From contig JAQVDA010000015.1 in assembly GCA_028698535.1 (NCBI GenBank), positions 1 through 12,245 of the forward strand: 12,245 bases of DNA, given 5' to 3'. Origin of the DNA: Bacilli bacterium. Lineage in GTDB: Bacteria; Bacillota_I; Bacilli_A; RF39; UBA660. This document shows, piece after piece, positions 1 through 12,245 of the stretch. Made by a program: the position numbers and the translations under genes. Positions within the stretch are counted from its first letter, which is position 1. Each line of letters starts with the position of its first letter. Below the pieces are notes generated by a model, which saw only the letters and a program-made list of their open reading frames with translations, ran no database searches and was not told the origin of the DNA.

Positions 1-993
1 GGGATGTCGTACGGCGGAAGTTTGTCACTACCAATCAAAATAGCCTTAGCTAAGGGGTCGGGGATGGTGGGCACCTCCACTAATACTGGTGAGTCAGTAT
101 TAGCTAAAGAGGTAAGAGAAAACGCTAAATATGTAATAGGGCAAATTCATCGTGGCACTTTGATGAGTTCTAAGGATTTAGCTTATTTAGATGCGATTGA
201 GTTAAGATTTGGTCAGGGGGCTTGGGGTGGCGGAGCGGAGTCAATTAAATATGCTACTGATATTGGCCCAAGATTAAGATGCGATTGGCGTTTAAAGGAA
301 AATGAAGATAAGTTTTTCGCCGCTAGATTAAAGGGGATTAATTCCCCCGCGGATTTAATTAAATATATTGATACCCTAAAAGAAAAGTATGATGTTCCGA
401 TTGGTATTAAGATAGCTGCCACTGATTTTCTGGAGCGAGAACTGGATGTAATTACCAGTACTAATTGTGATTATATTGTACTTGATGGCTGTGAGGGGGG
501 AACGGCTGTCGCTCCACCAACTTTAGCCGATAATTTAGGGTTGCCTACTTTATACGCTTTGATTAGAGCGGTTAAATATTTAGAGAAAAAAAAGATCAAA
601 GATAAATTTGATTTAATTATAACAGGGGGCTTAACAACTCCCGGTCATTTTCTAAAAGCTTTGGCACTTGGGGCTAAGGCTGTATATATTGGTTCAATTG
701 CGGTCTTTGCTACTATTCACAACCAAGCGGTTAAAACCTTACCAGAATTACCGCCAACCCAATTAGCTTTATATAAGGGTCAATATAAGAATAAACTTAA
801 CATTGATTTAGCCGCTCGTTCTTTAAGTAACTTTTTAACTTCTTGTAATAAAGAAATGAAGTTAGCGCTACAAGCGATGGGAAAGAAAAATATTAGTGAA
901 TTATCAATAGATGATTTGGTGTCGTTAGATCGAAATATTAGTGATTATACTAACATTAGATATGTTCTTGGTGAATATAATAATAAGGAATAA
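1..993 (+). CDS. FMN-binding glutamate synthase family protein (5' end outside window)
   Basis: Partial gene: the frame is open to the window edge, so the N-terminal part is missing and the first visible ATG (position 4) is internal. About 330 residues remain, matching the FMN-barrel of the glutamate synthase large-subunit family. Visible family signatures are NTGE (residues 27-30), the RFGQGAWGGG segment (residues 68-77; GQGAKPG-like in relatives), DGCEGGTA near 160 (flavin/substrate region) and ITGGLTTPGHF near 208 followed by LGAKAVYIG. After that point GltB proteins carry a cysteine cluster for a [3Fe-4S] centre. Here the stretch reads FATIHNQAV with no cysteines, as in stand-alone FMN-binding relatives. 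It is probably a stand-alone oxidoreductase; substrate and partner are unknown. No gltD-like gene is visible. It ends in TAA at 991-993, 15 bp before the next promoter. Confidence 0.85.
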   Translation, partial: GMSYGGSLSLPIKIALAKGSGMVGTSTNTGESVLAKEVRENAKYVIGQIHRGTLMSSKDLAYLDAIELRFGQGAWGGGAESIKYATDIGPRLRCDWRLKENEDKFFAARLKGINSPADLIKYIDTLKEKYDVPIGIKIAATDFLERELDVITSTNCDYIVLDGCEGGTAVAPPTLADNLGLPTLYALIRAVKYLEKKKIKDKFDLIITGGLTTPGHFLKALALGAKAVYIGSIAVFATIHNQAVKTLPELPPTQLALYKGQYKNKLNIDLAARSLSNFLTSCNKEMKLALQAMGKKNISELSIDDLVSLDRNISDYTNIRYVLGEYNNKE

Positions 994-1007
994 CTTTATT
1001 GAGTTAC

Positions 1008-1036
1008 TTTACAAGCGCCAATTTTTATGGTAAAAT
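1008..1036 (+). promoter_or_regulatory. Sigma-A promoter with extended -10 for the OLE RNA/oapA unit
   Basis: A -35 box TTTACA (1008-1013), a 17-bp spacer and a -10 box TAAAAT (1031-1036) preceded by TGG (extended -10). The predicted start is about 1042-1044. It lies just after the stop of the upstream gene and before the structured non-coding stretch, so that RNA has its own promoter. Confidence 0.75.
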
Positions 1037-1042
1037 CTCCTC

Positions 1043-1560
1043 ACATATGGTGCAATATTCTAGTTAGGTAACACAACTTTAAGGTGGGGCTAAAAATCTA
1101 CCCATGGGGTTGAAGGACAAATCATCTTTATGCTTTTTCCGCCCAGGTTAGGGTGTAATTATGGTTTAAGAGTTAAGGTGGAACTATAATGGCATATAGT
1201 GGCCTGCCTTTTCTCGCGTCAATAAAAAAGTAAAAAACCTCGTTGTGAGTGAATGTAGCGGATAAGGAGTCTGATTTGTTTCTCTGGCCAAAGAAATAAA
1301 TCTATTGTCTTTTGAAATTACTTTTGCAAAAACAACTAAGAGTTGAAGTTATCTTGTTGGGAAAACCTCTAGATTGTTCAAAGTAATATGAGGTGCTATG
1401 GGGATTGAAGTGTGGACTAAGTGGCAATCAAGTAACTATGTTGTTTATAGTTATTTCCTTTAAAGGGAAACCGCCCGGAAGCAATGAACGGTAGGAAATA
1501 GGGAAAGCCGACTTGACCTAAGCCGCAAGATTTACCCATAGCACTACCATAGACATTTTT
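1043..1560 (+). ncRNA. ole: OLE RNA (ornate large extremophilic RNA) candidate
   Basis: About 520 nt with no convincing reading frame, less AT-rich than other spacers here, behind a strong promoter and directly upstream of a gene with OapA features. That is the known arrangement of OLE RNA and its membrane partner. Helices I can pair by hand: 1119-1125 with 1161-1167 (one wobble); 1183-1188 with 1195-1200; an 11-bp hairpin 1273-1283/1292-1302 (one wobble, 8-nt loop); and a 10-bp perfect long-range helix 1393-1402 with 1535-1544. The last closes a 3' domain holding hairpins 1403-1407/1425-1429, 1433-1439/1447-1453, 1452-1459/1493-1500 (which shares two bases with the preceding hairpin, so not all pairs coexist) continued by 1470-1473/1489-1492, and 1512-1515/1526-1529. 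No terminator is seen before oapA, so the RNA is probably made on a transcript that continues into oapA. Known OLE RNAs are about 600 nt, so this one is slightly short. The family call rests on architecture and the neighbouring protein; I could not align it to the consensus. The 5' end follows from the promoter and the 3' end is approximate. Confidence 0.82.
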
Positions 1561-1576
1561 TAAGGAGAACTAATTA

Positions 1577-2128
1577 GTGGCAAAGCGAAAAAAGAAGAAA
1601 AAAAAGAAATTAGATAAGTGGATATATCATATTTTTATTATCACTTTTTTATTATCACTTTTTTTAGGGATAATTACTAATACCATCATTAATAATTTAC
1701 CCATTCTCTTGGCTATTATTATATTAATAATTATTATCTTGATAGGGATTATCTTTGATATTATTGGTACGGCTATTGTTAGTGCGGATATTTCTGTTTT
1801 TAATGCTAAAGCTTCGCGAAAAAAGAAGGGGGCTAAAGCGGCCATTTTGTTAATTAAAAATGCGGATAAAGTGGCTAGTGTCTGTAATGATGTTGTCGGT
1901 GATGTTTGTGGCATCATTAGCGGGGCTATTGGCATTTTAATTGCTTTTCGGTTAGGTGCTATAATAAAAATTAATATACCCCTTATAACATTATTACTAG
2001 GAGCAATAATTGCGGCGCTAACGGTAATTGGTAAGGCGCTTGGTAAAAAGATAGCTTTAAAAAACAGTAATGATATTATTTATCGCGTAGCCGTTATTAT
2101 TCATTATATAGGTGTTCCTAAAAAGTAG
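1577..2128 (+). CDS. oapA: OLE RNA-associated membrane protein OapA
   Basis: 183-residue polytopic membrane protein. GTG start at 1577 with AAGGAG at 1562-1567, nine bases upstream. The N-terminus is extremely basic (eight lysines/arginines in residues 3-11), which suits RNA or phospholipid contact at the cytoplasmic face. Hydrophobic segments lie at about 16-38, 42-63, 110-130 and 132-152. The middle loop contains a basic SRKKKGAK stretch (80-87), then NADKV and NDVVGD, giving a D-x3-D motif at D105 and D109. From memory, OapA of Bacillus halodurans carries a functionally important DX3D motif at almost the same position. In known systems OapA recruits OLE RNA to the membrane and the complex affects tolerance of alcohol, cold and magnesium stress. 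Position, length, topology and motif all agree with OapA. Confidence 0.85.
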   Translation: MAKRKKKKKKKLDKWIYHIFIITFLLSLFLGIITNTIINNLPILLAIIILIIIILIGIIFDIIGTAIVSADISVFNAKASRKKKGAKAAILLIKNADKVASVCNDVVGDVCGIISGAIGILIAFRLGAIIKINIPLITLLLGAIIAALTVIGKALGKKIALKNSNDIIYRVAVIIHYIGVPKK

Positions 2129-2152
2129 TTATTTTTTAAACAACTACTTTTT
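2120..2152 (+). terminator. Intrinsic terminator after oapA
   Basis: Arms 2120-2130 and 2142-2152 (AAGTAGTT / AACTACTT core) pair without mismatch around an 11-nt loop. The 3' arm ends in a run of five T, with further T-rich sequence after it. The oapA stop codon lies inside the left arm. Confidence 0.65.
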
Positions 2153-2169
2153 ATTACTTAAATATCAAC

Positions 2170-2197
2170 TTGACATACGGATAATTATAAATATTGT
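2170..2197 (+). promoter_or_regulatory. Probable promoter of the RsgI-like gene
   Basis: A perfect -35 TTGACA (2170-2175) is followed after 16 bp by TATTGT (2192-2197), a weak -10. Overlapping AT-rich alternatives such as TATATT at 2197-2202 have too long a spacer. The -35 is clear; the exact -10 is not. Confidence 0.4.
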
Positions 2198-2246
2198 ATA
2201 TTATAAAAAGATATGCTAAATTTATATTATAGAAAGGATGTTGTTA

Positions 2247-3155
2247 ATGAAAAAAGGTTTATTATTTATTGTTGTTTTAGTTCTTTTAATGATTGGTGGT
2301 TATTATTTATATTTTGTTCCTGTTAATTATATTGGGATTGATATTAATCCAAGTATTGAACTGGCGACTAATCGTTTAAAACGGGTAATTGAAGTTTTAC
2401 CTTTAAATGATGAAGCCGATTTATTAATAGCGGATATTAAACTTAAGAATTTACCTTATAATGAGGCTATTGAAAAGGTTATAAAAGAAGCTGGGGCATC
2501 AGGTTACCTTGATGATTTAGCCGAAGATAATGTTATTGTTGTTAGTGTGGCTGCTTCTAATGATGATGTGGCCAAGACTTTGGAAAATGATCTTCATAAC
2601 AATATTGACAAATATTTATCTAATAATAAGATTCCGGCTTTGATATTAATGGAACAAAATCATGAAGAAAGAAAAGATTTAGCTAAATCCTATGATATTA
2701 GTTATGGCAAGTTATTATTAATTCAAAAATTAATATCATTAAATCCTGATTTAGAAATGGATGAACTGGTGGATCAACCACTACGTAATATTGCTAATCA
2801 GATAGGAGCCGCCAGAGTAGAAATAGTTCATAATAGAGCTAGGGAACGTCAACAAACCCTAGCCCAACAAAGAGAACAATTAAAAAATGAATATCAGGAA
2901 AGACGTGAGGCAACCATAAAAGGGATTTTGGACGCGAATGATGTTCCGAATGAAGATCGTAATCAAGTTAGACAAGAAATAATTGCTAAACACAAAGAGA
3001 AAATTATGGATGCTATTGATGATACTAAAGAAACAATTGAAGATAATTGGGGCGAAATAAAGGATAAGCCAGCTCCTAATATACCACCAACTATTCAAGA
3101 AAAAGTAGAAAAAGCTAAAGTTAGATGGGGTAATCAAAAAGATAATAAAAGATAA
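2247..3155 (+). CDS. RsgI-like membrane-anchored protein without an anti-sigma domain
   Basis: Start chosen at ATG 2247 (302 residues): the Shine-Dalgarno GAAAGG at 2232-2237 is nine bases upstream of it but touches the alternative ATG at 2238. One N-terminal membrane helix (residues 4-23) follows a short basic tail, placing the rest outside the cell. Residues about 28-50 (GIDINPSIELATNR, then RVIEV) match the start of the extracellular domain of RsgI, the anti-sigma-I factor, including the Asn34-Pro35 bond where RsgI proteins are reported to self-cleave. A YDISYGK segment later in the protein also fits RsgI-type domains. The C-terminal third is highly charged and probably helical or coiled-coil. 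The cytoplasmic anti-sigma domain of true RsgI is absent, and no sigI gene adjoins. It may therefore be an envelope-sensing or structural relative rather than a sigma-factor regulator; its role is unknown. Confidence 0.75.
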   Translation: MKKGLLFIVVLVLLMIGGYYLYFVPVNYIGIDINPSIELATNRLKRVIEVLPLNDEADLLIADIKLKNLPYNEAIEKVIKEAGASGYLDDLAEDNVIVVSVAASNDDVAKTLENDLHNNIDKYLSNNKIPALILMEQNHEERKDLAKSYDISYGKLLLIQKLISLNPDLEMDELVDQPLRNIANQIGAARVEIVHNRARERQQTLAQQREQLKNEYQERREATIKGILDANDVPNEDRNQVRQEIIAKHKEKIMDAIDDTKETIEDNWGEIKDKPAPNIPPTIQEKVEKAKVRWGNQKDNKR

Positions 3156-3179
3156 AAAAGAATCAATTGATTCTTTTTT
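3154..3179. terminator. Bidirectional terminator between the RsgI-like gene and cotJC
   Basis: A perfect 26-bp palindrome of A6-GAATCAATTGATTC-T6 form. It gives a hairpin with a U-run on either strand and separates two convergent genes. It overlaps both stop regions. Confidence 0.8.
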
Positions 3180-3735
3180 GTATGCCTTGACTTAGGTATT
3201 CATCCAAGAGATTTTTAAACCGGTCAAAGTGAACTATTTCGCGATGATGTAGGAAAGCAAGGGGTGCTAAAACCTCGGGGTCATCAGTTAAATCCATTAG
3301 ATATTCATATGTTATACGGGCTTTTTCTTCTGCCGCTAAATCTTCATAAAGATCAACAATGGGGTCTCCCTTACTAGCAAAATATTTGGCTGAGAATTGA
3401 ACGCCATTGGCATTGAGTGGAAAAGGGGCTCTACCATGTTCTGAGTAATGACCATCTAAACCAGCTGCTTTTAACTCAGCAATAGTTGCATCTCGTAATA
3501 GCTGATAAACCATGGTTGCAACCATTTCAGCATGGCCTAGTTCCTCACTGCCAATATCCGTTAATAACGCTTTCCCTTTTTCATCGGGCATGGTATAACG
3601 CTGGTTTAAATATCTAAGCCCGGCGGCTAGTTCACCGTCAGGGCCACCGTATTGAGTTGCCAGAGCTTTAGCTAATCTAATATCCTTCTTTTTGATGTTT
3701 ACTGGAAACTGTAATTTTTTTTCATACTTCCACAT
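3163..3735 (-). CDS. cotJC: Spore coat protein CotJC, manganese-catalase family
   Basis: 190 residues starting MWKYEKKLQFP, the typical CotJC N-terminus. The longer frame up to 3786 only overlaps the cotJB end, so I start at 3735, two bases after the cotJB stop, with GAAGGTGG upstream inside cotJB. Features of the dimanganese ferritin-like fold: YGGPDGELAA (E35), EELGHAE (E64/E65, H68), LYEDLAAEEKAR (E136/E137) and REIVH (E166, H169), supplying the expected Glu/His metal ligands. In Bacillus subtilis the cotJ operon is expressed in the mother cell under sigma E, and CotJC is a component of the inner spore coat. Length and motifs are ordinary, so the protein looks intact. Translational coupling with cotJB is likely. 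Confidence 0.95.
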   Translation of the reverse strand: MWKYEKKLQFPVNIKKKDIRLAKALATQYGGPDGELAAGLRYLNQRYTMPDEKGKALLTDIGSEELGHAEMVATMVYQLLRDATIAELKAAGLDGHYSEHGRAPFPLNANGVQFSAKYFASKGDPIVDLYEDLAAEEKARITYEYLMDLTDDPEVLAPLAFLHHREIVHFDRFKNLLDEYLSQGIQKRIN

Positions 3736-3737
3736 AC

Positions 3738-4307
3738 TTACTGGCCACCACCTTCCCAGGGCCATGGACCCCGCAACCATTGCCAAGGATATTGTTTTAA
3801 TACCTCGCTACGAAGACTAATTGGCCCAAACTTCTTTTCAAATTCGTTTGTTAGTTGTTTAAGCTGTTCATTATTTTGATTAAATTGTTTAAGAGCTTCT
3901 TGATTAGTTGGGAAAACATCTAAAAATAAATCATAATTAATCACATTAGTAGTTAATAACTGAATATCATATAACATTTGGTCTCTTTCGCTTAGGGGTG
4001 GATTCATGCGATGTATTTGGTCAATTTCAGCCACAACATCTTGATATTCTTTAGCCATAGGAACAGTTACAGTATCATGTGGAGTAGGATATATTTTTGC
4101 TAAATAGGAACTTCTTCTTTTGGGCGGTAGAACGGGACTTAAATACTGTTGATAATCTTGAGGTGATAACGCAACAGTTGTAGAATTAAAGGGCGGACTT
4201 TGATAATGTGGGGTATTTAAGTGGTGGGTATCATCCATAGCCGGGGAATTATAATAATGGTTATCGCCACATCCTCGATACGATGGTAAGTAATGATAAT
4301 AATTCAT
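3738..4307 (-). CDS. cotJB: Spore coat protein CotJB with a long N-terminal extension
   Basis: 189 residues from ATG 4307, preceded by an ideal AAGGAGG (4314-4320) six bases upstream; the open frame continues to 4355 but has no comparable site. Residues about 105-189 are a CotJB domain: SERDQMLYDIQ, YDLFLDVFPTN, EFEKKFGP and a Trp-rich PWQWLRGPWPWE end. The first ~100 residues are low-complexity and rich in Tyr, His, Pro, Asn and Ser, as in many coat proteins. Ordinary CotJB is only about 85-100 residues, so this is a fusion or extension. No CotJA-type sequence is recognisable in it or next to it. It forms an operon with cotJC. Confidence 0.88.
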   Translation of the reverse strand: MNYYHYLPSYRGCGDNHYYNSPAMDDTHHLNTPHYQSPPFNSTTVALSPQDYQQYLSPVLPPKRRSSYLAKIYPTPHDTVTVPMAKEYQDVVAEIDQIHRMNPPLSERDQMLYDIQLLTTNVINYDLFLDVFPTNQEALKQFNQNNEQLKQLTNEFEKKFGPISLRSEVLKQYPWQWLRGPWPWEGGGQ

Positions 4308-4326
4308 ATTTTTCCTCCTTCGTGGT

Positions 4327-4334
4327 ATTGTATG
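4327..4334 (-). promoter_or_regulatory. Sporulation-type -10 box (CATACAAT) upstream of cotJB
   Basis: On the minus strand this reads CATACAAT, a full match to the sigma-E -10 consensus; with the next base it also fits the sigma-K pattern CATAnnnTA. The -35 is poor: GGCTCATT (4346-4353) resembles the sigma-E -35 but lies only 11 bp away instead of 13-15. The predicted start would leave a very short leader of about 13 nt. Known mother-cell expression of cotJ supports it. Confidence 0.4.
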
Positions 4335-4402
4335 TGGATTTTTGTAATGAGCCAAGGCTAATGGCTATAATTAATTTATCTTGTAAAATAATATTTATTA
4401 AT

Positions 4403-4423
4403 AAAAAAACACCCCTAAGGGTG
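4403..4423 (-). terminator. Terminator of the lipoprotein gene
   Basis: On the minus strand, a hairpin with arms 4419-4423 and 4410-4414 (CACCC/GGGTG, 4-nt loop) is followed by seven T (4409-4403), a few bases after the stop of the lipoprotein gene. Confidence 0.8.
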
Positions 4424-4428
4424 ACCTT

Positions 4429-5187
4429 TTATTGTTTTGGTTCAATAGATTGATTAAAATCTATTTTATTATTCTTATTTTTATATGTGATGATTGTTAG
4501 TTGATAGTTATATTTGGTGGTGAAGGTTATCTTAATAAACGGCGCCTCCTCATCAGATGAGCAATCTAATATAAGTGCTTCATTTTTAGGTAAAATATTT
4601 TTAAAATAAATTATTGCTTTTTCCTTTGGTTTATCATTTGCATATTCAATTAAACTGACTTTAAAATTATAAACCTCTTCGTTACTAATAAAATGATAAG
4701 CATTAATTGATTTATCTTCATAATTATCTTTTCCATTAGTTAAATGAATAACAATGTCATCATTCTGATGATTAAAATCAGTGTTAAAGGTAATGTTATA
4801 AAAAGACATATCGGTGTATTTTTCCTCTACCTCTGTATAAAATTCATTTAATACAGTTGTATCATGACTTGCAAAGTATTTTTCATCGCCATGTTTATAA
4901 ACAATAGTGTTGTTAGGGTATATATAAAAATAATAATTATCATCTTCGACAGTAGTAATAATTAATTCTTTATAACTTAAATCTAAATCGGTCATCTTTT
5001 TGTTAGTAAATGCAATCTTATCTAAAATATTATTAATTTTCATGAAATCATCGGTAATTAAGGAAACCTCATCAAATTGTACTGCCTTTATTTCTTCAGT
5101 ATAACGTTTAAACGAAACTGTTTTTTGATTAAAACAACCTAGAATAATAATGAATACCATAAAAATAAAGGGAGTTACTTTTTTCAT
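4429..5187 (-). CDS. Putative lipoprotein of unknown function
   Basis: 252 residues from ATG 5187, chosen because GGAGG lies eight bases upstream and because it starts a signal peptide: basic MKK, a hydrophobic stretch to residue 16, and the lipobox IILGC with Cys18 as the lipidation site. The upstream extension to 5226 lacks such features. The mature part is hydrophilic, rich in Asp, Asn, Tyr and Lys, with alternating pattern suggesting mostly beta structure; I recognise no domain. It is probably anchored on the outer face of the cytoplasmic membrane. It is monocistronic, with its own extended -10 promoter and terminator, back to back with the tRNA gene. Confidence 0.72.
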   Translation of the reverse strand: MKKVTPFIFMVFIIILGCFNQKTVSFKRYTEEIKAVQFDEVSLITDDFMKINNILDKIAFTNKKMTDLDLSYKELIITTVEDDNYYFYIYPNNTIVYKHGDEKYFASHDTTVLNEFYTEVEEKYTDMSFYNITFNTDFNHQNDDIVIHLTNGKDNYEDKSINAYHFISNEEVYNFKVSLIEYANDKPKEKAIIYFKNILPKNEALILDCSSDEEAPFIKITFTTKYNYQLTIITYKNKNNKIDFNQSIEPKQ

Positions 5188-5206
5188 ATTAGGCCTCCAT
5201 AATCGC

Positions 5207-5215
5207 ATTATAACA
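5207..5215 (-). promoter_or_regulatory. Extended -10 promoter of the lipoprotein gene
   Basis: The minus strand reads TGT-TATAAT. No good -35 is seen at 17 bp (TGTTTT), consistent with an extended -10 promoter. It lies about 20 bp before the gene's start codon. Confidence 0.55.
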
Positions 5216-5274
5216 TAAAATAACAATAAAAAACACTTGAAGATACTTGCTAAAAGTGTGTTTTACTGTTAAAA

Positions 5275-5280
5275 TATAAT
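5275..5280 (+). promoter_or_regulatory. -10 box of the tRNA-His gene
   Basis: A perfect TATAAT placed 16 bp before the first tRNA base. No convincing -35 at the usual spacing; TTGCTA at 5247-5252 is 22 bp away. Confidence 0.45.
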
Positions 5281-5296
5281 TCGTAATAGTTAATAT

Positions 5297-5373
5297 GGCG
5301 ACTGTGGTGAAGTGGTTAACACACCAGATTGTGGATCTGGCATGCGTGGGTTCGATTCCCATCAGTCGCCCCA
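5297..5373 (+). tRNA. tRNA-His (anticodon GTG)
   Basis: Complete cloverleaf. Acceptor stem GCGACTG (5298-5304) pairs with CAGTCGC (5363-5369). G5297 is the extra G-1 typical of tRNA-His and faces discriminator C5370, followed by an encoded CCA (5371-5373). Anticodon stem CCAGA (5324-5328)/TCTGG (5336-5340) with a 7-nt loop and anticodon GTG at 5331-5333. T-arm GTGGG-TTCGATT-CCCAT. It stands alone with its own terminator. Confidence 0.97.
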
Positions 5374-5376
5374 TTA
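5367..5376 (+). repeat. Putative attL-like direct repeat at the tRNA-His 3' end
   Basis: CGCCCCATTA spans the tRNA 3' end and three following bases. The same 10-mer recurs at 7146-7155 in the same orientation. Both copies are preceded by AGT (AGT-CGCCCC here, AGTA-CGCCCC there). The interval holds the AbiE cassette, so the pair could be the footprint of integration at the tRNA. Confidence 0.45.
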
Positions 5377-5415
5377 ATAGGATTATATGAGAACTAAAAG
5401 TTCGCATTTAAGAAG

Positions 5416-5450
5416 ATCCCCAAGCTTTAATACAAATCTTGGGGATTTTT
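5416..5450 (+). terminator. Terminator downstream of tRNA-His
   Basis: ATCCCCAAG (5416-5424) pairs perfectly with CTTGGGGAT (5438-5446) around a 13-nt loop, and five T close the site. Confidence 0.88.
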
Positions 5451-5532
5451 ATATGTTAGAAGGTGTAAACGAAAATATAAAAAATTTAATATATTTTATC
5501 AACTATGTTACACTACACAAAACAAAAAAACA

Positions 5533-5580
5533 ATTTCCTTCTACTACTTATTGTGTTATAACTTAGTAGCGGAAGGAAAT
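5533..5580 (+). promoter_or_regulatory. abiE promoter/operator: inverted repeat around an extended -10
   Basis: ATTTCCTTC (5533-5541) is exactly complementary to GAAGGAAAT (5572-5580), and the inner CTACT/AGTAG (5544-5548/5565-5569) extends the repeat. Between the arms lies TGT-TATAAC (5554-5562), an extended -10 box; the -35 is weak. AbiEi antitoxins repress their own promoter by binding inverted repeats, so this is a good candidate operator. Confidence 0.6.
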
Positions 5581-5586
5581 GAAAGA

Positions 5587-6180
5587 ATGAATAATGAAGG
5601 TAAAATTTTAAAATTAGCAATGAATAACAATGGTTATATCACTACAAATATAGTAGAAAAAAACGGAATCAAAAGACAATTTTTAGGATATCTAGTAAAA
5701 AAAGGAAAACTTGAAAAAGTCGCCCGTGGTATTTATATTCTTCCAGAAGAAGCAGAGGATATTTATTTAATTTTACAAAATAAAAGTAAAAAAATGGTTT
5801 TTTCTCATATGACTGCCTTAAGGTTTCATAATTTCACTGATAGAATTCCGCATATTATTGATATTACTGTTACAAATGAATATCGTGGTTCTTTACAAAA
5901 CAAAGAGAACATTAATTTATTTCGTGTGAAAAAAGAATATATTGATTTAGGGATGATTTGGGTGAAATCACCATATGGAAATAAGATTAAAATTTATGAC
6001 TTAGAGAGATCTATCTGCGATATTATTAGAAATAAAAAAGATATCGAATTAGAATTGTTTAACAAAGCAATTAGGGATTACCATAGTAAAACTGATAAAA
6101 ATCAATTAAAATTAATGAATTACGCTCAAAAGCTAGGAATTGAGAAAGAAGTATTAAAAACTTTTGAGGTACTATCATGA
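5587..6180 (+). CDS. abiEi: AbiEi-type antitoxin / transcriptional autorepressor
   Basis: 197 residues from ATG 5587, ten bases after GGAAGG (5571-5576). The longer frame to 5551 would begin inside the operator and has no ribosome site. Residues about 4-50 form the winged-helix N-terminal domain of AbiEi antitoxins (GKILKLA, NNGYITT, LVKKGKLEKVARGIYILPEE). The C-terminal domain includes FSHMTALRFHNF, DITV and YDLERSICDIIR, also typical. AbiE is a type IV toxin-antitoxin and phage-defence system in which the antitoxin does not bind the toxin protein but counters it and represses the operon. It overlaps the toxin start by ATGA. The gene appears intact while its toxin is broken. Confidence 0.88.
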   Translation: MNNEGKILKLAMNNNGYITTNIVEKNGIKRQFLGYLVKKGKLEKVARGIYILPEEAEDIYLILQNKSKKMVFSHMTALRFHNFTDRIPHIIDITVTNEYRGSLQNKENINLFRVKKEYIDLGMIWVKSPYGNKIKIYDLERSICDIIRNKKDIELELFNKAIRDYHSKTDKNQLKLMNYAQKLGIEKEVLKTFEVLS

Positions 6181-6998
6181 TAACTAGTTCAGACAGCTTA
6201 AAAGCGAAATTGAAAAATCTCGCTAAAGAAATAAATATTTCTCAAGAAGCGTTAAGAAAAATGGTAATGTTTGAAAGATTATTAATGAGAGTTTCTTTAT
6301 CCAAATATAAAGAAAATTTTATATTAAAAGGTGGATTTTTAATTGCCGCAATATTTGATATTAATTTGCGAAGTACAGTTGATGTTGATACGACTATTAA
6401 AGGAGTGTCATTAAATAGTGAATCATTAAAAAAATGATGAAAGATATTATTAATATATCAACTGACGATAATTGTAGTTTTGAAATTGTTAATATAGAAG
6501 AAACTAGGTTAGAAGATGAATATAACGGTTATAAAGTAATGTTAAAAGTAAAAATGGATAAAATTTGGGATTATATAACAATTGATGTTACTACAGGAGA
6601 TTCTATAACATATAAAGAAATAGACTTTGTATATACTACTATCTTATAATAACGAAACTATAATTGCTGAAAAATTTGAAGCTATTGTATCTCGTGGTAT
6701 TATTAATTCTAGAATGAAAGATTATTACGATTTATATATGTTTGTTAATTTCAAATTATCGGAAATCGATGTAAAAATTTTAATAGCGGCCATAAATAAC
6801 ACCGCAAAGAGAAGAAAAACTTTAGATAATATAAACAGTAGTTCTAAGATAATAGCGTTAATTGAAAACAATGATCAACTAAAAGAATTATGGAAGCAAT
6901 ATCAATCAAAATTTGAATATGTCAAAAATATAGAGTTTAAAGATGTAATTGCATCAATTAAAGTTATTAGTGAAATAGTAACACCAGTTAGCGTTTAA
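6177..6998 (+). pseudogene. abiEii: AbiEii nucleotidyltransferase toxin, split by two frame changes
   Basis: Three consecutive fragments together give an AbiEii/AbiGii-like toxin of about 270 residues (family about 280-300). Fragment 1 (6177-6437) carries LKGGF (residues 50-54) and the D-x-D metal site DVD (69-71). Fragment 2 (stop at 6647-6649) supplies the middle, ending with IDVTTGD and ITYKEIDFVY. Fragment 3 (readable from about 6640 to 6998) has SYNNETIIAEKFEAIVSRG and SRMKDYYD, the remaining conserved motifs. The first break sits at an A7 run (6428-6434): one extra A would join the frames as ESLKK-MMKDI. The second, at 6630-6650, seems to lack about ten residues found in relatives between FVY and SYNNET, so a small out-of-frame deletion is likely. 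The toxin is probably inactive unless frameshifting restores part of it. Confidence 0.85.
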
Positions 6999-7145
6999 AT
7001 AACAACTATTTAGTAAAATTATAACGCATTAAATACAAAATGATACATATTCAATCTATTTACAAATTTCATTGGACTTCTAACATCTATTGCGGTATGT
7101 TATTGTTGTATTAACCTTAGAAGGTTGTACTATATAGATAAAGTA

Positions 7146-7155
7146 CGCCCCATTA
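7146..7155 (+). repeat. Putative attR-like copy of the tRNA-His 3' end
   Basis: Second copy of CGCCCCATTA, in direct orientation to 5367-5376 and beyond the toxin remnant. Identity ends after 10 bases (13 if one inserted A is allowed), which is short for an attachment site and leaves chance possible. Confidence 0.4.
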
Positions 7156-7228
7156 GGAAATGAAGCAAATTCTAATTTGGAGTTCGTTTTTTTATACCCA
7201 ACATTATATATGATATAATTATGTCATT

Positions 7229-7299
7229 GTTGATAATAAGGCTCACTTAATTGATATATCAACGATATCATTATCAAAAAACTTAGTGAAATTATCAAC
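7229..7299. repeat. Cluster of TTGATAAT-like half-sites in an inverted repeat
   Basis: GTTGATAAT (7229-7237) is complementary to ATTATCAAC (7291-7299). Inside are the palindrome TTGATATATCAA (7251-7262) and a further ATTATCAA (7270-7277). Four related half-sites in 71 bp could be protein-binding sites or one folded RNA. No protein can be assigned. Confidence 0.45.
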
Positions 7300-7349
7300 G
7301 GTATTAGAAGGAATATCCTAATTAATAACAGAGAAGAATAAAAAAAATA

Positions 7350-7374
7350 AAAATAAAAAGACGCTTTTGCGTCT
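7350..7374 (-). terminator. Terminator of the DUF5661 gene
   Basis: On the minus strand, AGACGC (7374-7369) pairs with GCGTCT (7364-7359) around a 4-nt loop, followed by T-rich sequence, just beyond the stop of the DUF5661 gene. Confidence 0.85.
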
Positions 7375-7378
7375 AATT

Positions 7379-7672
7379 TTATTTTATTGTCGCCCAATAT
7401 TGTTTTGCCTCCTGCTCCATTTTAGTTAATCTAATATAATAATCAGGGAATTCTCTTAAATGGGCTAGGGCTATTTTACCGGTCAATATAGGATTATCAT
7501 TGGTTACGTTTGTAGCCGGCGAAATTTTGCCGTGTTCTAATTCGACATCTAACCCCGTTCTAAATTGTTCAATATCAAATCGTTCTTTCGCGAAGTTAAT
7601 ACCGAGCAAGGTTGCGATTTGTTTAGCCTCTTCGGTTGTAAACCCCGACTTTGCATATCTATAATAATTCAT
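7379..7672 (-). CDS. DUF5661 family protein
   Basis: 97 residues, starting at ATG 7672 with GGAGGT nine bases upstream. The C-terminal two thirds match the DUF5661 family as I remember it: FDIEQFRTGLDVELEHG (residues about 33-49), ATNVTNDNPILTGKIALAHL and FPDYYIRLTKME. No signal peptide or membrane segment, so it is cytoplasmic. The function of the family is unknown. Upstream, CATATAAT resembles both a sigma-A -10 (TATAAT) and a sigma-E -10, but no good -35 accompanies it. It has its own terminator; hsp20 lies 95 bp upstream on the same strand behind another terminator, so the two are separate units. Confidence 0.82.
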   Translation of the reverse strand: MNYYRYAKSGFTTEEAKQIATLLGINFAKERFDIEQFRTGLDVELEHGKISPATNVTNDNPILTGKIALAHLREFPDYYIRLTKMEQEAKQYWATIK

Positions 7673-7741
7673 ATAATATTTACCTCCTTACTTATATATT
7701 ATATGTATACTGTTATGGTAATGATATTAAAATAGGCGTTA

Positions 7742-7772
7742 ATAAAAACAAAAAATAGAGCAATGCTCTATT
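7742..7772 (-). terminator. Terminator of hsp20
   Basis: On the minus strand, AATAGAGC (7772-7765) pairs with GCTCTATT (7761-7754) around a 3-nt loop, followed by T5, G and T5. The hsp20 stop codon lies within the stem. Confidence 0.85.
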
Positions 7773-8166
7773 CAATTGTAATAGTTTTTTTACTTGGATG
7801 TTCAAGTTGTTTTTTAGGGAAAGCCACTTTTAAAATACCATTTTCAAAATTAGCTTTAATTGAAGATTCATCTAACTCACCAATATAAAAACTACGTTTG
7901 TATTCGCCATAAAACCTTTCTCTTTTGATGTAATTTTTGTCTTCTTTGACTTCGGTTTCTTTCTTAGCTCTAATAGTTAGATACCCTTTGTCATAGTCAA
8001 CGGTAACATCCTCTTTTTTGAAACCAGGGATATCCATTTCGACAACATAGTTATTATCTTCCTCATAGATATCAGTTTTCATAATGTTATTGGTGGTTAC
8101 TAATGGTATGTCAAAAAAATCATCGAATAAATCCCCAAAAAACCCTCTTCTTGGTAATAAATTCAT
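7768..8166 (-). CDS. hsp20: Small heat-shock protein, Hsp20/alpha-crystallin family
   Basis: 132 residues, ATG 8166 with GGAGGG upstream. A short N-terminal arm (residues 1-29, Phe/Asp-rich) is followed by a complete alpha-crystallin domain: KTDIYEEDNNYVVEMDIPGF, LTIRAKKE, the RSFYIGELDE strand and the signature ANFENGILKVAFPKK. A C-terminal ITI motif (I-x-I) serves for oligomer assembly. Such proteins are ATP-independent holdases in the cytoplasm. Regulation is visible: a consensus sigma-A promoter with a CIRCE-like operator just upstream suggests heat induction through HrcA. Length and motifs are normal. Confidence 0.96.
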   Translation of the reverse strand: MNLLPRRGFFGDLFDDFFDIPLVTTNNIMKTDIYEEDNNYVVEMDIPGFKKEDVTVDYDKGYLTIRAKKETEVKEDKNYIKRERFYGEYKRSFYIGELDESSIKANFENGILKVAFPKKQLEHPSKKTITIE

Positions 8167-8189
8167 TATTTATCCCTCCTTACTTACAT

Positions 8190-8217
8190 ATTATATAAAA
8201 TATTTGGCGCTTGTCAA
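8190..8217 (-). promoter_or_regulatory. Consensus sigma-A promoter of hsp20
   Basis: The minus strand reads TTGACA (8217-8212), a 16-bp spacer, then TATAAT (8195-8190). Both boxes match consensus, which implies that a repressor keeps the gene low in normal growth. Confidence 0.85.
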
Positions 8218-8224
8218 CCCATTT

Positions 8225-8251
8225 TTAGCGCTTTCTTCAGAAGAGCGCTAA
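8225..8251. promoter_or_regulatory. CIRCE-like HrcA operator
   Basis: TTAGCGCTT-N9-GAGCGCTAA, the exact 9-9-9 layout of CIRCE (TTAGCACTC-N9-GAGTGCTAA). The A-to-G and T-to-C changes are symmetric, so the dyad is kept; the ninth position is a wobble pair. It ends 7 bp upstream of the hsp20 -35. Confidence 0.72.
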
Positions 8252-8307
8252 TTTTATTATGCCCCCCGGATATTAAAATATACAATAAATAAGTTATTTA
8301 CCGCCGT

Positions 8308-8336
8308 TTGAATATTTAAATAAACTAGTGTATAAT
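8308..8336 (+). promoter_or_regulatory. Sigma-A promoter of gpsA
   Basis: TTGAAT (8308-8313), a 17-bp spacer and TATAAT (8331-8336). Predicted start about 8343, 22 bases before the ATG, with AAGGAG (8351-8356) in the leader. Confidence 0.8.
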
Positions 8337-8364
8337 TTAAATATCAATCTAAGGAGACATAAAT

Positions 8365-9375
8365 ATGAATAATCGAGTAACTATTATTGGAGCGGGCAGT
8401 TTTGGAACCGCTATTGCCCAAATATTTGCGGATAAAAAATATGTGGTAAAAATATATACAAAATCCCGAGAACAAGCCCAAGAAATTAATGAAATGAAGA
8501 CTAATCGGTATTACTTTGATGATTTAATCTTTACTGATCAAGTTGAGGCTACCACTGATTTAACGACTGCGATTAATTTTTCCAAATATATTATTTTAGC
8601 GGTTCCCAGTGATGCGATAAGAGCCGTTTGTTGTGATATTAATAAAGTTCTTAAATTGCCGAAGATATTTATTAATGTCGCAAAAGGTTTAGAACCGGGC
8701 ACTAATAAGCTATTATCAGAAATAATTGATGAGGAAATAGAGGAAAAAGGGCGTACTGGGGTGGTGGTACTATCAGGCCCTTCCCATGCTGAAGAAATAG
8801 TAAAAAGGTATTTTACTGCTTTGGTGGCCGTTTCTAAAAATGAAGCTTTAGCGAAAGAAGTACAATATTTATTTAGTAATGAATATATTAGAGTATATAC
8901 ATCAAATGATTTAGTTGGTGTTCAAGTGGCGGCGACAGTGAAAAATATTTTAGCTATTGCTAGTGGTATTATATATGGTATGGGTTATGGAGATAATACT
9001 AGAGCCGCCTTAATAACAAGAGGTTTAGCCGAGATGGTAAGGTATGGCCGCTATAAAGGGGTAATGTTGGATACTTTTTTTGGCCTAGCGGGGATTGGTG
9101 ATTTAATTGTGACTGCGACTAGTTACCATAGCCGTAATTTCCAAGTGGGTCTTAAAATTGGTAAGGGTATGTCAGCTCAAGAGGCCTTAGCTTCTTCTAA
9201 AACAGTTGTTGAGGGTGTTAGGGCTACCGAAGCTGTTTATCAAGATATTCGCCAAAATAATATTGATATGCCAATAACAGTAGGTGTATATCAAATTCTC
9301 TTTGATAATAAGGATGCTAAGGAAGTTATGGATAATATTATTAAACGGCAATTAAAGGCGGAAATTATTGGTTAA
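8365..9375 (+). CDS. gpsA: Glycerol-3-phosphate dehydrogenase [NAD(P)+]
   Basis: 336 residues, the usual length for GpsA. It reduces dihydroxyacetone phosphate to sn-glycerol 3-phosphate, the backbone of membrane phospholipids; cytoplasmic. Visible motifs: the Rossmann dinucleotide site GAGSFGTA (residues 9-16), AVPSDAIR, VAKGLEPGT, LSGPSHAEE, the catalytic-lysine segment VAATVKNILA (Lys near 191), GDNTRAALITRG, GLAGIGDLIVTATS and SRNFQVG. Start supported by AAGGAG eight bases upstream. It has its own promoter. No strong terminator follows, so some read-through into the next unit is possible. Confidence 0.97.
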   Translation: MNNRVTIIGAGSFGTAIAQIFADKKYVVKIYTKSREQAQEINEMKTNRYYFDDLIFTDQVEATTDLTTAINFSKYIILAVPSDAIRAVCCDINKVLKLPKIFINVAKGLEPGTNKLLSEIIDEEIEEKGRTGVVVLSGPSHAEEIVKRYFTALVAVSKNEALAKEVQYLFSNEYIRVYTSNDLVGVQVAATVKNILAIASGIIYGMGYGDNTRAALITRGLAEMVRYGRYKGVMLDTFFGLAGIGDLIVTATSYHSRNFQVGLKIGKGMSAQEALASSKTVVEGVRATEAVYQDIRQNNIDMPITVGVYQILFDNKDAKEVMDNIIKRQLKAEIIG

Positions 9376-9460
9376 AGGGTGGTGTTACTTTAGAATAAAT
9401 AGGGCTGTATTTTTATATTTCAAATCGTTATAATATAATTATAGAGAGGAAGGTAATTAA

Positions 9461-10108
9461 ATGAAAAAAGAATCAAAAACTAATTTTGAAGTCAAAATAA
9501 ATGAATTAGTAAGTAATATAGTTAACTGGATTAAGAGTTTATTTAATGGCAAAAAAAGCCATGAACAAGTGCTTAATTTAGTTTTAACTATTATCGTCTT
9601 AATTTTCTTGTTGTGGTTATTAAAAATACCTTTTATTTTTTTGAGTATGTTAGGTAAGGGCTTAATGTTAACAACTTTTTCACCAATTGATAATTTTTTC
9701 AAAATTATCTGGGATATCATTATTCAGTTAACCTATATTATTGTGTCGTTGTATTTAATGATTGCCGTGGTGCGAGGTCTAATAGTTCGCGATATAAGAA
9801 ATTATAAACAATCAGTGGGGGAGAAGAAGACCGCTAAGAAGGATGAACTAACAAGAGTTAATGGTGAAAATAACACCCAGCCTTTATTATCTATTTTTAT
9901 GATGATTATTAAGATTTTAATTATAATTGCGATGATTCCCTTTATTATCTTTATTATTGGGTTGCTTGTTTTATTAGGATTTTTAATTGGTCTTTGGATA
10001 AAGGGGACGGCTTTAATAGGGGCTATTTTAATTATCATTGGTATTTTTCTAATAATAAGTACGGTAATGGGATTATTATTGAAAATGGTGTTTAAGGGGG
10101 ATAATTAA
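9461..10108 (+). CDS. Polytopic membrane protein of unknown function
   Basis: 215 residues, ATG 9461 with GAGGAAGG just upstream; overlapping TATAAT boxes at 9429-9439 may be its promoter, without a good -35. The first ~35 residues are hydrophilic. Membrane segments are at about 41-72, 80-108, 142-174 and 178-208, probably five or six helices in all. A charged loop (about 109-140, rich in Lys, Glu, Thr, Asn) separates the two halves. I recognise no family. The gene is followed after two bases by the next one, so the two very likely form an operon and act together at the membrane. Confidence 0.65.
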   Translation: MKKESKTNFEVKINELVSNIVNWIKSLFNGKKSHEQVLNLVLTIIVLIFLLWLLKIPFIFLSMLGKGLMLTTFSPIDNFFKIIWDIIIQLTYIIVSLYLMIAVVRGLIVRDIRNYKQSVGEKKTAKKDELTRVNGENNTQPLLSIFMMIIKILIIIAMIPFIIFIIGLLVLLGFLIGLWIKGTALIGAILIIIGIFLIISTVMGLLLKMVFKGDN

Positions 10109-10110
10109 TC

Positions 10111-10596
10111 ATGAAAAGATTATTAGTTCCGATTATTTTAGGAAGCCTTTTAATTGGTGTTGGGATTGTTTTAATGGCGTATGATTTTTCTCATTTTACT
10201 TATTCTAATCAAGAATACCAATCACAAGGCGAATGTACCATTGAAACCGCAACGTATAGAATAGGGGCGAAACGTATATATATAAAAGTTTATAATAGTA
10301 AATATCGTATCATTGAAGATAACACTTTAGATGATAAATTTATGGTAATAACCTATTATAATCCTGATGTTATTAAACTACTAAAGACTGAAAGGGAAAA
10401 TGTTGAATATAGGGATTTAGGGTTTGGTTACCAATTAAATCATCATCAACAGCGATTTTATCAAGAAATAATAACCGCTTTAATAACCAGTATTAACGAT
10501 AGAAAGATTTATAATTATGATACGTTATTTTTCCCTTATTTAGAAATAAAGGTTAATGTTAAAGATCGAACAAAATTAAAAGTATTATCTTTTTAA
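10111..10596 (+). CDS. Membrane-anchored protein of unknown function
   Basis: 161 residues, ATG 10111 two bases after the previous stop, with AAGGGGG upstream inside the preceding gene. One N-terminal helix (residues 4-24, basic MKR before it) anchors the protein; the remaining ~135 residues should be outside. They contain alternating hydrophobic/polar stretches (RIYIKVYNSKYRII, FMVITYYNP, LEIKVNV) that suggest beta-strands, faintly like DUF4097-type beta-strand proteins, which also have such an anchor. That resemblance is weak and by memory only. The pairing with a polytopic protein suggests a small envelope module. Confidence 0.6.
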   Translation: MKRLLVPIILGSLLIGVGIVLMAYDFSHFTYSNQEYQSQGECTIETATYRIGAKRIYIKVYNSKYRIIEDNTLDDKFMVITYYNPDVIKLLKTERENVEYRDLGFGYQLNHHQQRFYQEIITALITSINDRKIYNYDTLFFPYLEIKVNVKDRTKLKVLSF

Positions 10597-10627
10597 ATTA
10601 AAGTTTACAATAACTTATAGTAGGATG

Positions 10628-10636
10628 TGGTATAAT
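10628..10636 (+). promoter_or_regulatory. Possible extended -10 promoter overlapping the hisS start
   Basis: TGG-TATAAT fits an extended -10 exactly. TTTACA at 10604-10609 is 21 bp upstream, too far for a usual -35. Initiation would fall near 10641-10644, downstream of the first candidate start codon and 3-6 bases before the second (10647). Confidence 0.45.
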
Positions 10637-11978
10637 GTGTAGTAAAATGGAGAAGATTGAACCCAGAATATTATCTGGTTTTGTCAATTTTTTGCCAAGA
10701 GAACAACAAGCTTTTAATAATTTAGTGACTAAAGTACGTGAAACATACGAAACATATGGTTTTTTACCGCTTGATACCCCGATAGTAGATTTAGCGGAAA
10801 TATTATTAGCCAAAGCGGGCGGGGAAACTGAAAAACAAATATATCAAATGAAAAAAGGGGATACTAATTTAGCCCTTCGTTTTGATTTGACGGTGCCCTT
10901 AGCGAAGTATGTGGCGAAGAATTATTATCAGTTGAAATTTCCCTACCGGGCTTATCAAATTGGGCGGGTTTATCGTGGCGAAAGGGCTCAACGGGGGCGT
11001 TTTCGTGAGTTTTATCAAGCTGATGCGGATATTATTGGTGATAATGAATTAAATATTATAAATGATGCGGAAATAATTGTGCTTATTTATCATGTTTTTA
11101 AAGCCATAAATATTAATCGTTTTTTAATTAAAATAAATAACCGTAAAATTTATAGTGGTTTATTAACGGTGCTTGGTTTAAGTGATAAGTCAACTGATAT
11201 ATTAAGAACAATTGATAAAGCTAGTAAAATAGGTATTGAAGGCGTTAAAAAAGAATTTTATAAATTAAATCTTCTGGATGCGGATATTAATTTATTAGTA
11301 GAACTTATTACTTTAGAGGGCGATTTTGACCAAATAATAAAAAAATTACAAACTATTAATAATAACCAAAATGATATATTTACAGAGGGGATTGTCGAAT
11401 TAAAAGAATTAACGCAATATTTAAAGGCTTTCAATGTCGATAAGAATAATTATCAAATTGATTTAAGTATAACTAGAGGTTTAGATTATTATACGGGTAC
11501 TGTTTTTGAGACCGTGTTAAAAGGGCGCGAGGATATGGGTAGTATTTGTGGCGGCGGTCGTTATGATAATTTAGTCAGTAATTATAGTAATAAAAAATTA
11601 CCAGGCGTCGGGATGGCTATTGGTCTAAATCGATTGTTTTATGTGTTAAATGAAGTTAATTTATTAGATAACACTAAAATACCGAGCCTTGATATATTAG
11701 TTGCCCCCTTAACAAATGATTTATCTTATAGTATTCAAGTGGCTAATGAATTAAGGGACTCTGGAATTAAGACACAAATATATTTTGATAAGAAGAGTTT
11801 AAGAAGCCAAATTAATTATGCTAATCAATTAGAAATACCATATATAATATTTATAGGTGAAGACGAAGAAAAAACAAAAACAGTGGCTCTTAAGGAGCTT
11901 AAAACCGAAAATCAAGTTAATGTTTCTTTAGAAGAGGCGATTAAGAAAATTAAAGACAATAACAAAGTTGAGCAGTAA
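10635..11978 (+). CDS. hisS: Histidyl-tRNA synthetase, HisS2/archaeal-eukaryotic-like type
   Basis: 447 residues (443 from the second Met at 10647, where family similarity begins: MEKIEPRILSG). It attaches histidine to tRNA-His with ATP; a class II dimer in the cytoplasm. Motifs: RFDLTVPLAKYVA (about 78-90), the motif 2 region YQIGRVYRGERAQRGRFREFYQ (split here as YQIGRVYRGE and RAQRGRFREFYQ, about 103-124), the histidine signature TRGLDYYTGTVFE, and GGGRYDNLV with motif 3 LPGVGMAIGLNRL. A C-terminal anticodon-binding domain starts near LDILVAPL. Typical bacterial HisS has LTLRPEGT where this has FDLTVPLA, so it belongs to the type closer to archaeal and eukaryotic enzymes. AGGA nine bases before 10635 supports the first start. 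No T-box leader precedes it. The matching tRNA-His lies 5.3 kb upstream. Confidence 0.93.
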   Translation: MCSKMEKIEPRILSGFVNFLPREQQAFNNLVTKVRETYETYGFLPLDTPIVDLAEILLAKAGGETEKQIYQMKKGDTNLALRFDLTVPLAKYVAKNYYQLKFPYRAYQIGRVYRGERAQRGRFREFYQADADIIGDNELNIINDAEIIVLIYHVFKAININRFLIKINNRKIYSGLLTVLGLSDKSTDILRTIDKASKIGIEGVKKEFYKLNLLDADINLLVELITLEGDFDQIIKKLQTINNNQNDIFTEGIVELKELTQYLKAFNVDKNNYQIDLSITRGLDYYTGTVFETVLKGREDMGSICGGGRYDNLVSNYSNKKLPGVGMAIGLNRLFYVLNEVNLLDNTKIPSLDILVAPLTNDLSYSIQVANELRDSGIKTQIYFDKKSLRSQINYANQLEIPYIIFIGEDEEKTKTVALKELKTENQVNVSLEEAIKKIKDNNKVEQ

Positions 11979-12000
11979 TATTTCAATTAATTATTAAAAT

Positions 12001-12036
12001 AAAAACAGGATTTCATTAATGAAACCCTGTTTTTTT
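12001..12036. terminator. Bidirectional terminator between hisS and dut
   Basis: ACAGG (12005-12009) pairs with CCTGT (12026-12030). Inside, TTTC/GAAA extends the stem after one mismatch. A5 on the left and T7 on the right give a U-run for both convergent genes. Confidence 0.8.
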
Positions 12037-12245
12037 ATTTTGATCCGGTATGACCAAACCCACCGCCTCGGTTAATACCTATAGTTTTAACTGTCCCTGA
12101 TTGTACTGGTATAAACTCTATTTGTTCTATTTTATTTAAAACCAGTTGGGCAATGCGATCTCCTTTGCGAATATGATAGATACCTTCTTTGTTACCCGCT
12201 TCATCAATTGTATAAACAGGATAATCATTATCGCCTTCAGTCAAA
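12035..12245 (-). CDS. dut: dUTP diphosphatase, C-terminal part (5' end outside window)
   Basis: Only the last ~69 residues are in the window; the frame remains open at the right edge, so the apparent TTG start is internal. Visible: KGDRIAQLVL (conserved motif IV) and the C-terminal NRGGGFGHTGSK (motif V, the flexible P-loop-like tail that closes over the nucleotide in trimeric dUTPases). The enzyme hydrolyses dUTP to dUMP and pyrophosphate, keeping uracil out of DNA and feeding dTMP synthesis. Gly-His-Thr-Gly in the tail, where Gly-Ser-Thr-Gly is common, is a mild variation. Active-site motifs I-III lie outside. Confidence 0.93.
   Translation of the reverse strand, partial: LTEGDNDYPVYTIDEAGNKEGIYHIRKGDRIAQLVLNKIEQIEFIPVQSGTVKTIGINRGGGFGHTGSK

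Follow-up and report, generated by a model that had tools for sequence, protein, structure and literature searches.

The DNA analysed here, called the window below, is the whole 12,245-nucleotide (nt) stretch of contig JAQVDA010000015.1 (positions 1 to 12,245, forward strand) from the Bacilli bacterium assembly GCA_028698535.1, and its subject is an OLE RNA with the adjoining gene oapA (Table 1). A sequence-only reading had placed here a compact OLE RNA with its own extended -10 promoter, followed by a basic four-helix membrane protein carrying D105-x3-D109 and by a terminator, in a cotJ-bearing setting outside the isoprenoid-gene operon. These assignments were borne out. The Rfam OLE model RF01071 matched the window with 284.2 bits (gathering score 50, E 2.2e-80) over the whole model, positions 1-616, and its P7/P8 region is missing from the alignment. 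The gene upstream of the promoter matches glutamate synthase, and rsgI and cotJ genes lie downstream of oapA. A single OLE was found in the genome of the window (assembly of 670 kb in 85 contigs, 80% complete), and none in 14 control genomes. A shortened OLE lacking P7/P8 has already been published for RF39 (PMC11332333), so the locus is of a known kind; it is well supported as an OLE RNA plus oapA belonging to a published OLE variant. That report also has the absence of OapB and OapC from RF39 and the relation of OapA to CNNM proteins.

The genome is placed in the UBA660 lineage, and its nearest row in the OapA tree is that of genome G151 (locus L058). UBA660 is taken here to be a GTDB family in the order RF39, and "family" below refers to it.

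Table 1. Features of the ole-oapA locus in the window. Roles of loops are those given in the cited papers.
Feature	Positions	Strand	Remarks
Promoter	1008-1036	+	-35 TTTACA (1008-1013), 17-nt spacer, extended -10 TGGTAAAAT (1028-1036) with TG at 1028-1029 and hexamer TAAAAT at 1031-1036
OLE RNA	1031-1566	+	RF01071 match; probable transcript ~1043 to 1555, ends predicted
Terminal helix, 5' strand UAUGGU	1046-1051	+	Predicted from sequence to pair with ACCAUA at 1546-1551
P3/P3.1, 5' strand	1066-1080	+	Pairs with 1339-1354, 14 base pairs
P4 hairpin loop GCUAAAAAUC	1089-1098	+	A-rich dimer contact (PMC12265935)
P5.1 loop GCCCA	1141-1145	+	Dimer contact with P6.1 (PMC12265935)
P6.1 loop UGGCAU	1190-1195	+	Dimer contact with P5.1 (PMC12265935)
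P7/P8 site of full-length OLE	1209-1245	+	80 model positions replaced by 15 nt (RF01071 alignment)
P9.3 loop UGGCCA	1285-1290	+	Self-complementary kissing loop (PMC12286853, PMC12265935)
Domain 2 (3' part)	1380-1555	+	Alignment to OLE domain 2 of 30 sequences
oapA	1577-2128	+	183 amino acids, GTG start, AAGGAG ribosome-binding site at 1562-1567
Terminator (probable)	2119-2153	+	A/T-rich hairpin and T run, -10 kcal/mol, z -4.1

Judging by the promoter sequence, RNA polymerase would probably start near 1043, so that ~12 positions at the start of the Rfam match would be promoter DNA. A single site of this kind is at chance level, 9 comparable ones being found in 850-2330 against 8.2 expected. The promoter recurs in the family: of 112 loci (a set that includes L098, scored from a wrong anchor), 103 have a promoter-like site with a score of 10 or more out of 13 immediately ahead of OLE, against 36 of 2240 shuffles. 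A terminator search with a G+C rule over the locus returned no terminator, since the stem of the hairpin after oapA is A/T-rich.

Covariation among related sequences, which had been set beforehand as a condition for the assignment, is present in domain 2, where 35 of 45 pairs show pair-keeping changes on both sides among 30 aligned sequences. Of the alignment cells, 97.9% pair, against 75.3% in shuffles, which ignore kinship, and 34-46% when one side is slid, a control that leans towards structure because the structure was predicted from that very alignment. The P3/P3.1 helix lies outside the Rfam structure and can form a median of 12 to 14 pairs in each of the four size classes described below (102 loci), with modest shuffle z-scores (class medians -1.2 to -2.7); positions 1043-1110 of the window folded alone were unremarkable (z +1.4). 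P3 has been proposed to cross the membrane, and the contacts of the OLE dimer have been assigned to P4, P5.1/P6.1 and P9, with P7/P8 suggested to be dispensable as non-contacts (PMC12265935). All of these contact loops are present in the OLE of the window. The P9.3 loop contains GGCC, AGCU, GAUC or GUAC, all self-complementary, in 40/41 full and 10/12 mid loci. A change from GGCC to GAUC or AGCU has been reported (PMC12286853), and the GUAC version is an addition to that set.

The window OLE most resembles variant 2 (Fernando and Breaker 2024, PMC11332333), common in RF39, in the loss of P7 and P8, the adjoining oapA, the small genome and the failure to find OapC; its 284 bits would fall inside the 235-310 class of that variant if the Rfam model and that of the paper score alike. 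A difference from variant 2 is that its P13 loop (1434-1453), in the region bound by OapB elsewhere, reads GUUGUUU and no longer GGNRAC; loss of the OapB site has been reported for variant 1 (PMC11332333). Most of the 30 aligned relatives keep GGNRAC, though OapB is reported absent from RF39. With full-length OLE of Halalkalibacterium halodurans and clostridia the window shares domain 2, P3, the P4, P5.1, P6.1 and P9 loops and the DxxxD motif of OapA. It is roughly 60-80 nt shorter than the ~600-nt full-length RNA, and, unlike the full-length loci, it has a promoter of its own, with rsgI and a gene resembling glutamate synthase as neighbours in place of a long polycistronic cluster.

OapA of the window is intact and basic (27 K/R against 7 D/E) and has tryptophan 15. 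It groups with the proteins encoded beside OLE in relatives, as had been expected of an OapA. The protein has 673 relatives, and among the 120 listed none is named OapA. An OLE accompanies the relative in all 8 named loci, of 80, that were run through cmscan, and a looser motif scan placed an OLE core on the oapA strand in 70/80 loci and on the other strand in 9/80. A scan of viral contigs found no relative. Residues D61, D105, D109, K153 and K157 are invariant among the aligned relatives, D105, D109 and K153 in 50/50 and 20/20 rows of two sets, both of which include the window protein.

In the AlphaFold2 model of OapA, helix 6-38 at the N terminus precedes a CNNM-like bundle (helices 43-69, 96-130 and 134-162; the membrane placement is predicted). 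Residues 41-178 share the fold of the CNNM transmembrane part, as in MpfA/CorB/CNNM proteins (MtCorB 7m1t, TpCorC 7cff), and no row outside CNNM stood out. Unlike these, OapA has an extra first helix and the DxxxD motif and lacks CBS and CorC domains. The OapA profile gave no match at E 1 among PDB chain sequences, and Pfam PF01595 matched at 26.9 bits (E 4.4e-6), below its 28.4 cut-off. Glu111 of MtCorB binds Mg2+ (PMC8242095). In a remote alignment (hhalign E 3e-5 and 3e-6, probability 73-74%) it corresponds to K153 of OapA, while MtCorB Ser25 corresponds to D61 and Pro114 to Gly156. The lysine at the position of the Mg2+ glutamate therefore calls into question Mg2+ transport by OapA in the manner of CNNM. 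No description of this Glu-to-Lys change was found in the main-text passages of OLE and CNNM papers that were covered.

Two possible readings of OapA, both tentative, bear on this site. OapA might be an active CNNM-type transporter of divalent cations, gated by OLE as CBS domains gate CorB; the fold, the weak PF01595 match, and the knock-out phenotypes and the anticorrelation with MpfA in PMC11332333 speak for it, and the replacement of Glu111 and Ser25 by invariant K153 and D61 and of the conserved proline by Gly156 speaks against it. Just as tentatively, OapA might be a transport-dead CNNM relative in which K153, with D61 and D109, would fill the ion pocket, so that the protein would only anchor an RNA acting through other partners. 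The charge reversal at the aligned ion site, the invariant acidic residues and the retention of P3, P4 and OapA by the smallest OLE RNAs (see below) are consistent with this, and the remoteness of the alignment from which the pocket is drawn counts against it.

Among 386 family genomes, OLE was found in 249 and a match to the OapA profile in 253; 245 have both, 4 OLE only, 8 OapA only and 129 neither, so that 257 have at least one. The co-occurrence has a Fisher p of 1e-86, a value that ignores kinship, and the absences are soft because many family genomes are incomplete. In the fetched stretches of L011, L040 and L045 (genus g4), OLE stands without oapA.

In 106 same-strand loci oapA starts a median of 56 nt past the measured end motif of OLE. 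This spacing and the promoter of its own would suit a long cis-acting 5' leader controlling oapA. Such a role was weighed and is considered unlikely: oapA lies ~1.0-1.2 kb away in L012, L017, L061 and L069, the two are on different contigs in G003, G274 and G348, a leader would not be expected to carry loops that connect two copies of the RNA, and OLE of H. halodurans is part of a membrane ribonucleoprotein (PMC12265935). Still less probable, and also set low, is that the pair is a decaying relict of a shrinking genome. The small genome, the lost P7/P8 and P13 loop letters and the many relatives that lack the pair point that way; the covariation, the intact oapA with its invariant residues, the recurring promoter and the near-perfect pairing of OLE with OapA point against decay.

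Of the published partners of OLE, bS21 is present in the genome of the window. The L7Ae family of OapC, which the sequence-only reading had proposed to look for, was not found there, nor in any of 22 relatives (0/23 family genomes), and in this the lineage differs from the ribonucleoprotein of H. halodurans. An OapC-type match occurs in 13/14 genomes of other families of the class, 12 of them over the cut-off. Two frames of the window's genome, of 118 and 181 amino acids, match KOW and are read by size as L24 and NusG; KOW is presumably the domain of OapB. The genome has no MpfA-type hit over the cut-off. PF01595 exceeds the cut-off in 1/23 family genomes, one without OLE and OapA, and in 0/14 family genomes with OLE.

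Sizes were measured as domain 1 (GGUGCA to GGACUAAG; 114/121 fetched loci) and domain 2 (GGACUAAG to the end of GACCUAAG...; 110 loci). Domain 1 falls into 41 full (399-440 nt), 12 mid (350-386), 58 short (296-341) and 3 mini (202-205) loci, counts that are not frequencies because the best-scoring full and nearly all low-scoring loci were chosen; the window OLE, with 365 nt, is mid. Domain 1 lengths are missing for L026, L073 and L084-L087, and for L060, which was left out of the class counts as contig-cut (match from model position 54, contig end 4 bases beyond). Domain 2 measures 115-137 nt in all 110 loci. Among the 58 short loci, 46 are without P9.3 and 3 have a P9.3 whose loop is self-complementary; in the remaining 9 the segment is longer, with none by the rule used here.

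The three mini-OLEs (L025, L082 and L083, genera g36 and g126) measure 378-381 nt by the Rfam bounds. They have neither the P5.1 loop GCCCA, which the remaining 106 of the 109 measured loci possess, nor the exact P6.1 loop UGGCAU, absent also from 11 others of the 109. With the P5.1/P6.1 dimer contacts gone, they exceed the loss of P7/P8. Retained in them are the loop of P4, short hairpins and domain 2. P3 can still form, with 11-13 pairs, and oapA follows directly, 37-39 nt past the measured end motif in 3/3. No description of an OLE without P5/P6 was found in the main-text passages of OLE papers that were covered, and none of six variant terms occurs in the text of PMC12054373. Folded alone, the full mini-OLE was unremarkable (z -1.4). 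A P9 kissing loop drawn from its UGAUCA was rejected as a candidate, because these letters lie in a stem of the minimum-energy fold.

An OapA basic tail of at least 12 residues before W15 occurs in 30/34 full, 9/12 mid, 0/56 short and 0/3 mini loci. A link between tail length and RNA size is not significant, since just 2 independent pairs can be drawn from the tree, neither of them contrary; a third was lost when one bad row was removed.

Some very short matches have other possible sources. L084 (G355, 377 nt) and L085 (G265, 288 nt) belong to genera whose other listed members have ~590-607 nt, and contig-end or assembly effects are possible for both; the OLE matches of G265, G305, G120 and G307 touch or nearly touch contig ends. 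L026 (G025:C3) is a second, contig-cut OLE match with a poor 5' part in a genome that also has a full-length OLE.

The reading preferred here, with a rough probability of 0.88, is that the window carries a two-gene ole-oapA transcription unit with a variant-2 OLE in a reduced-genome member of the Bacilli of the UBA660 lineage, working as a membrane particle. OLE would fold and dimerise through its P4, P5.1/P6.1 and P9 loops, an OapA dimer beside P3 would hold it at the membrane, and oapA would be translated from read-through of the OLE transcript. Most likely, OapA would seat the RNA in the membrane and contribute a remodelled ion pocket, with OLE RNA standing in for the CBS/CorC regulatory domains. 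Because the genome has no MpfA-type hit over the cut-off, the particle may do the stress and cation work of MpfA proteins elsewhere. What is said here of dimerisation and of the seating on OapA, like a modulating role in the response to Mg2+, cold, alcohol and carbon stress, is carried over from published studies of H. halodurans. The RNA family, the partner gene, the promoter sequence, the loss of P7/P8, the co-occurrence in the family and the CNNM-like fold are observed directly.

Several points weigh against this reading. Its support is sequence, conservation, co-occurrence and fold, from which we infer function in this lineage. K153 would argue against plain CNNM-type transport, and 129 of the 386 family genomes lack both partners. 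An exchange of OLE-OapA for MpfA is not strict, because 8/9 sampled genomes without OLE and OapA are also without PF01595 over the cut-off. The three mini-OLEs form one clade of the OapA tree (SH-aLRT 99), inside the short group, and are thus one event seen three times. Only one identified member, UBA660, underlies the family and order names used here.

Around the locus, an RsgI-like anti-sigma factor gene (PF23750; 2238-3155), possibly spore-linked, directly follows oapA, and rsgI stands in the same place in UBA660 (L130) and L058. The spore-coat genes beyond it are cotJC-like (Mn catalase family) and cotJB (3163-4355, minus strand). A tRNA at 5298-5370 has an anticodon read by eye as GUG (His), and hisS is at 10635-11978. 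An AbiEi-like antitoxin gene (PF13338) and three short overlapping frames, presumably a broken AbiEii-type gene, occupy 5551-6998. Elsewhere in the family, an L31-Firmicutes ribosomal protein leader (876-909 of L020) lies close to an OLE locus.

OLE ranks with the largest structured RNAs of bacteria for which no biochemical function is known. The main interest of the locus lies in its relatives: among them is a naturally minimal OLE, and their OapA shows reversed charge at the site aligned with the CNNM ion site. The size series suggests which parts OLE can lose, with domain 2, P3, P4 and OapA as those it cannot. It is conceivable, though doubtful as a whole, that the dimer domain is largely dispensable, that the core is domain 2, P3, P4 and OapA, and that OapA is no CNNM-type Mg2+ transporter, with a lysine fixed where the ion pocket used to be. 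Cryo-electron microscopy resolved domain 1 and not domain 2, which in the size series is the part of near-constant length. The mini-OLE loci offer small RNA-protein pairs for structural work, and whether OapA transports Mg2+ becomes directly testable through the lysine aligned with the CNNM ion site.
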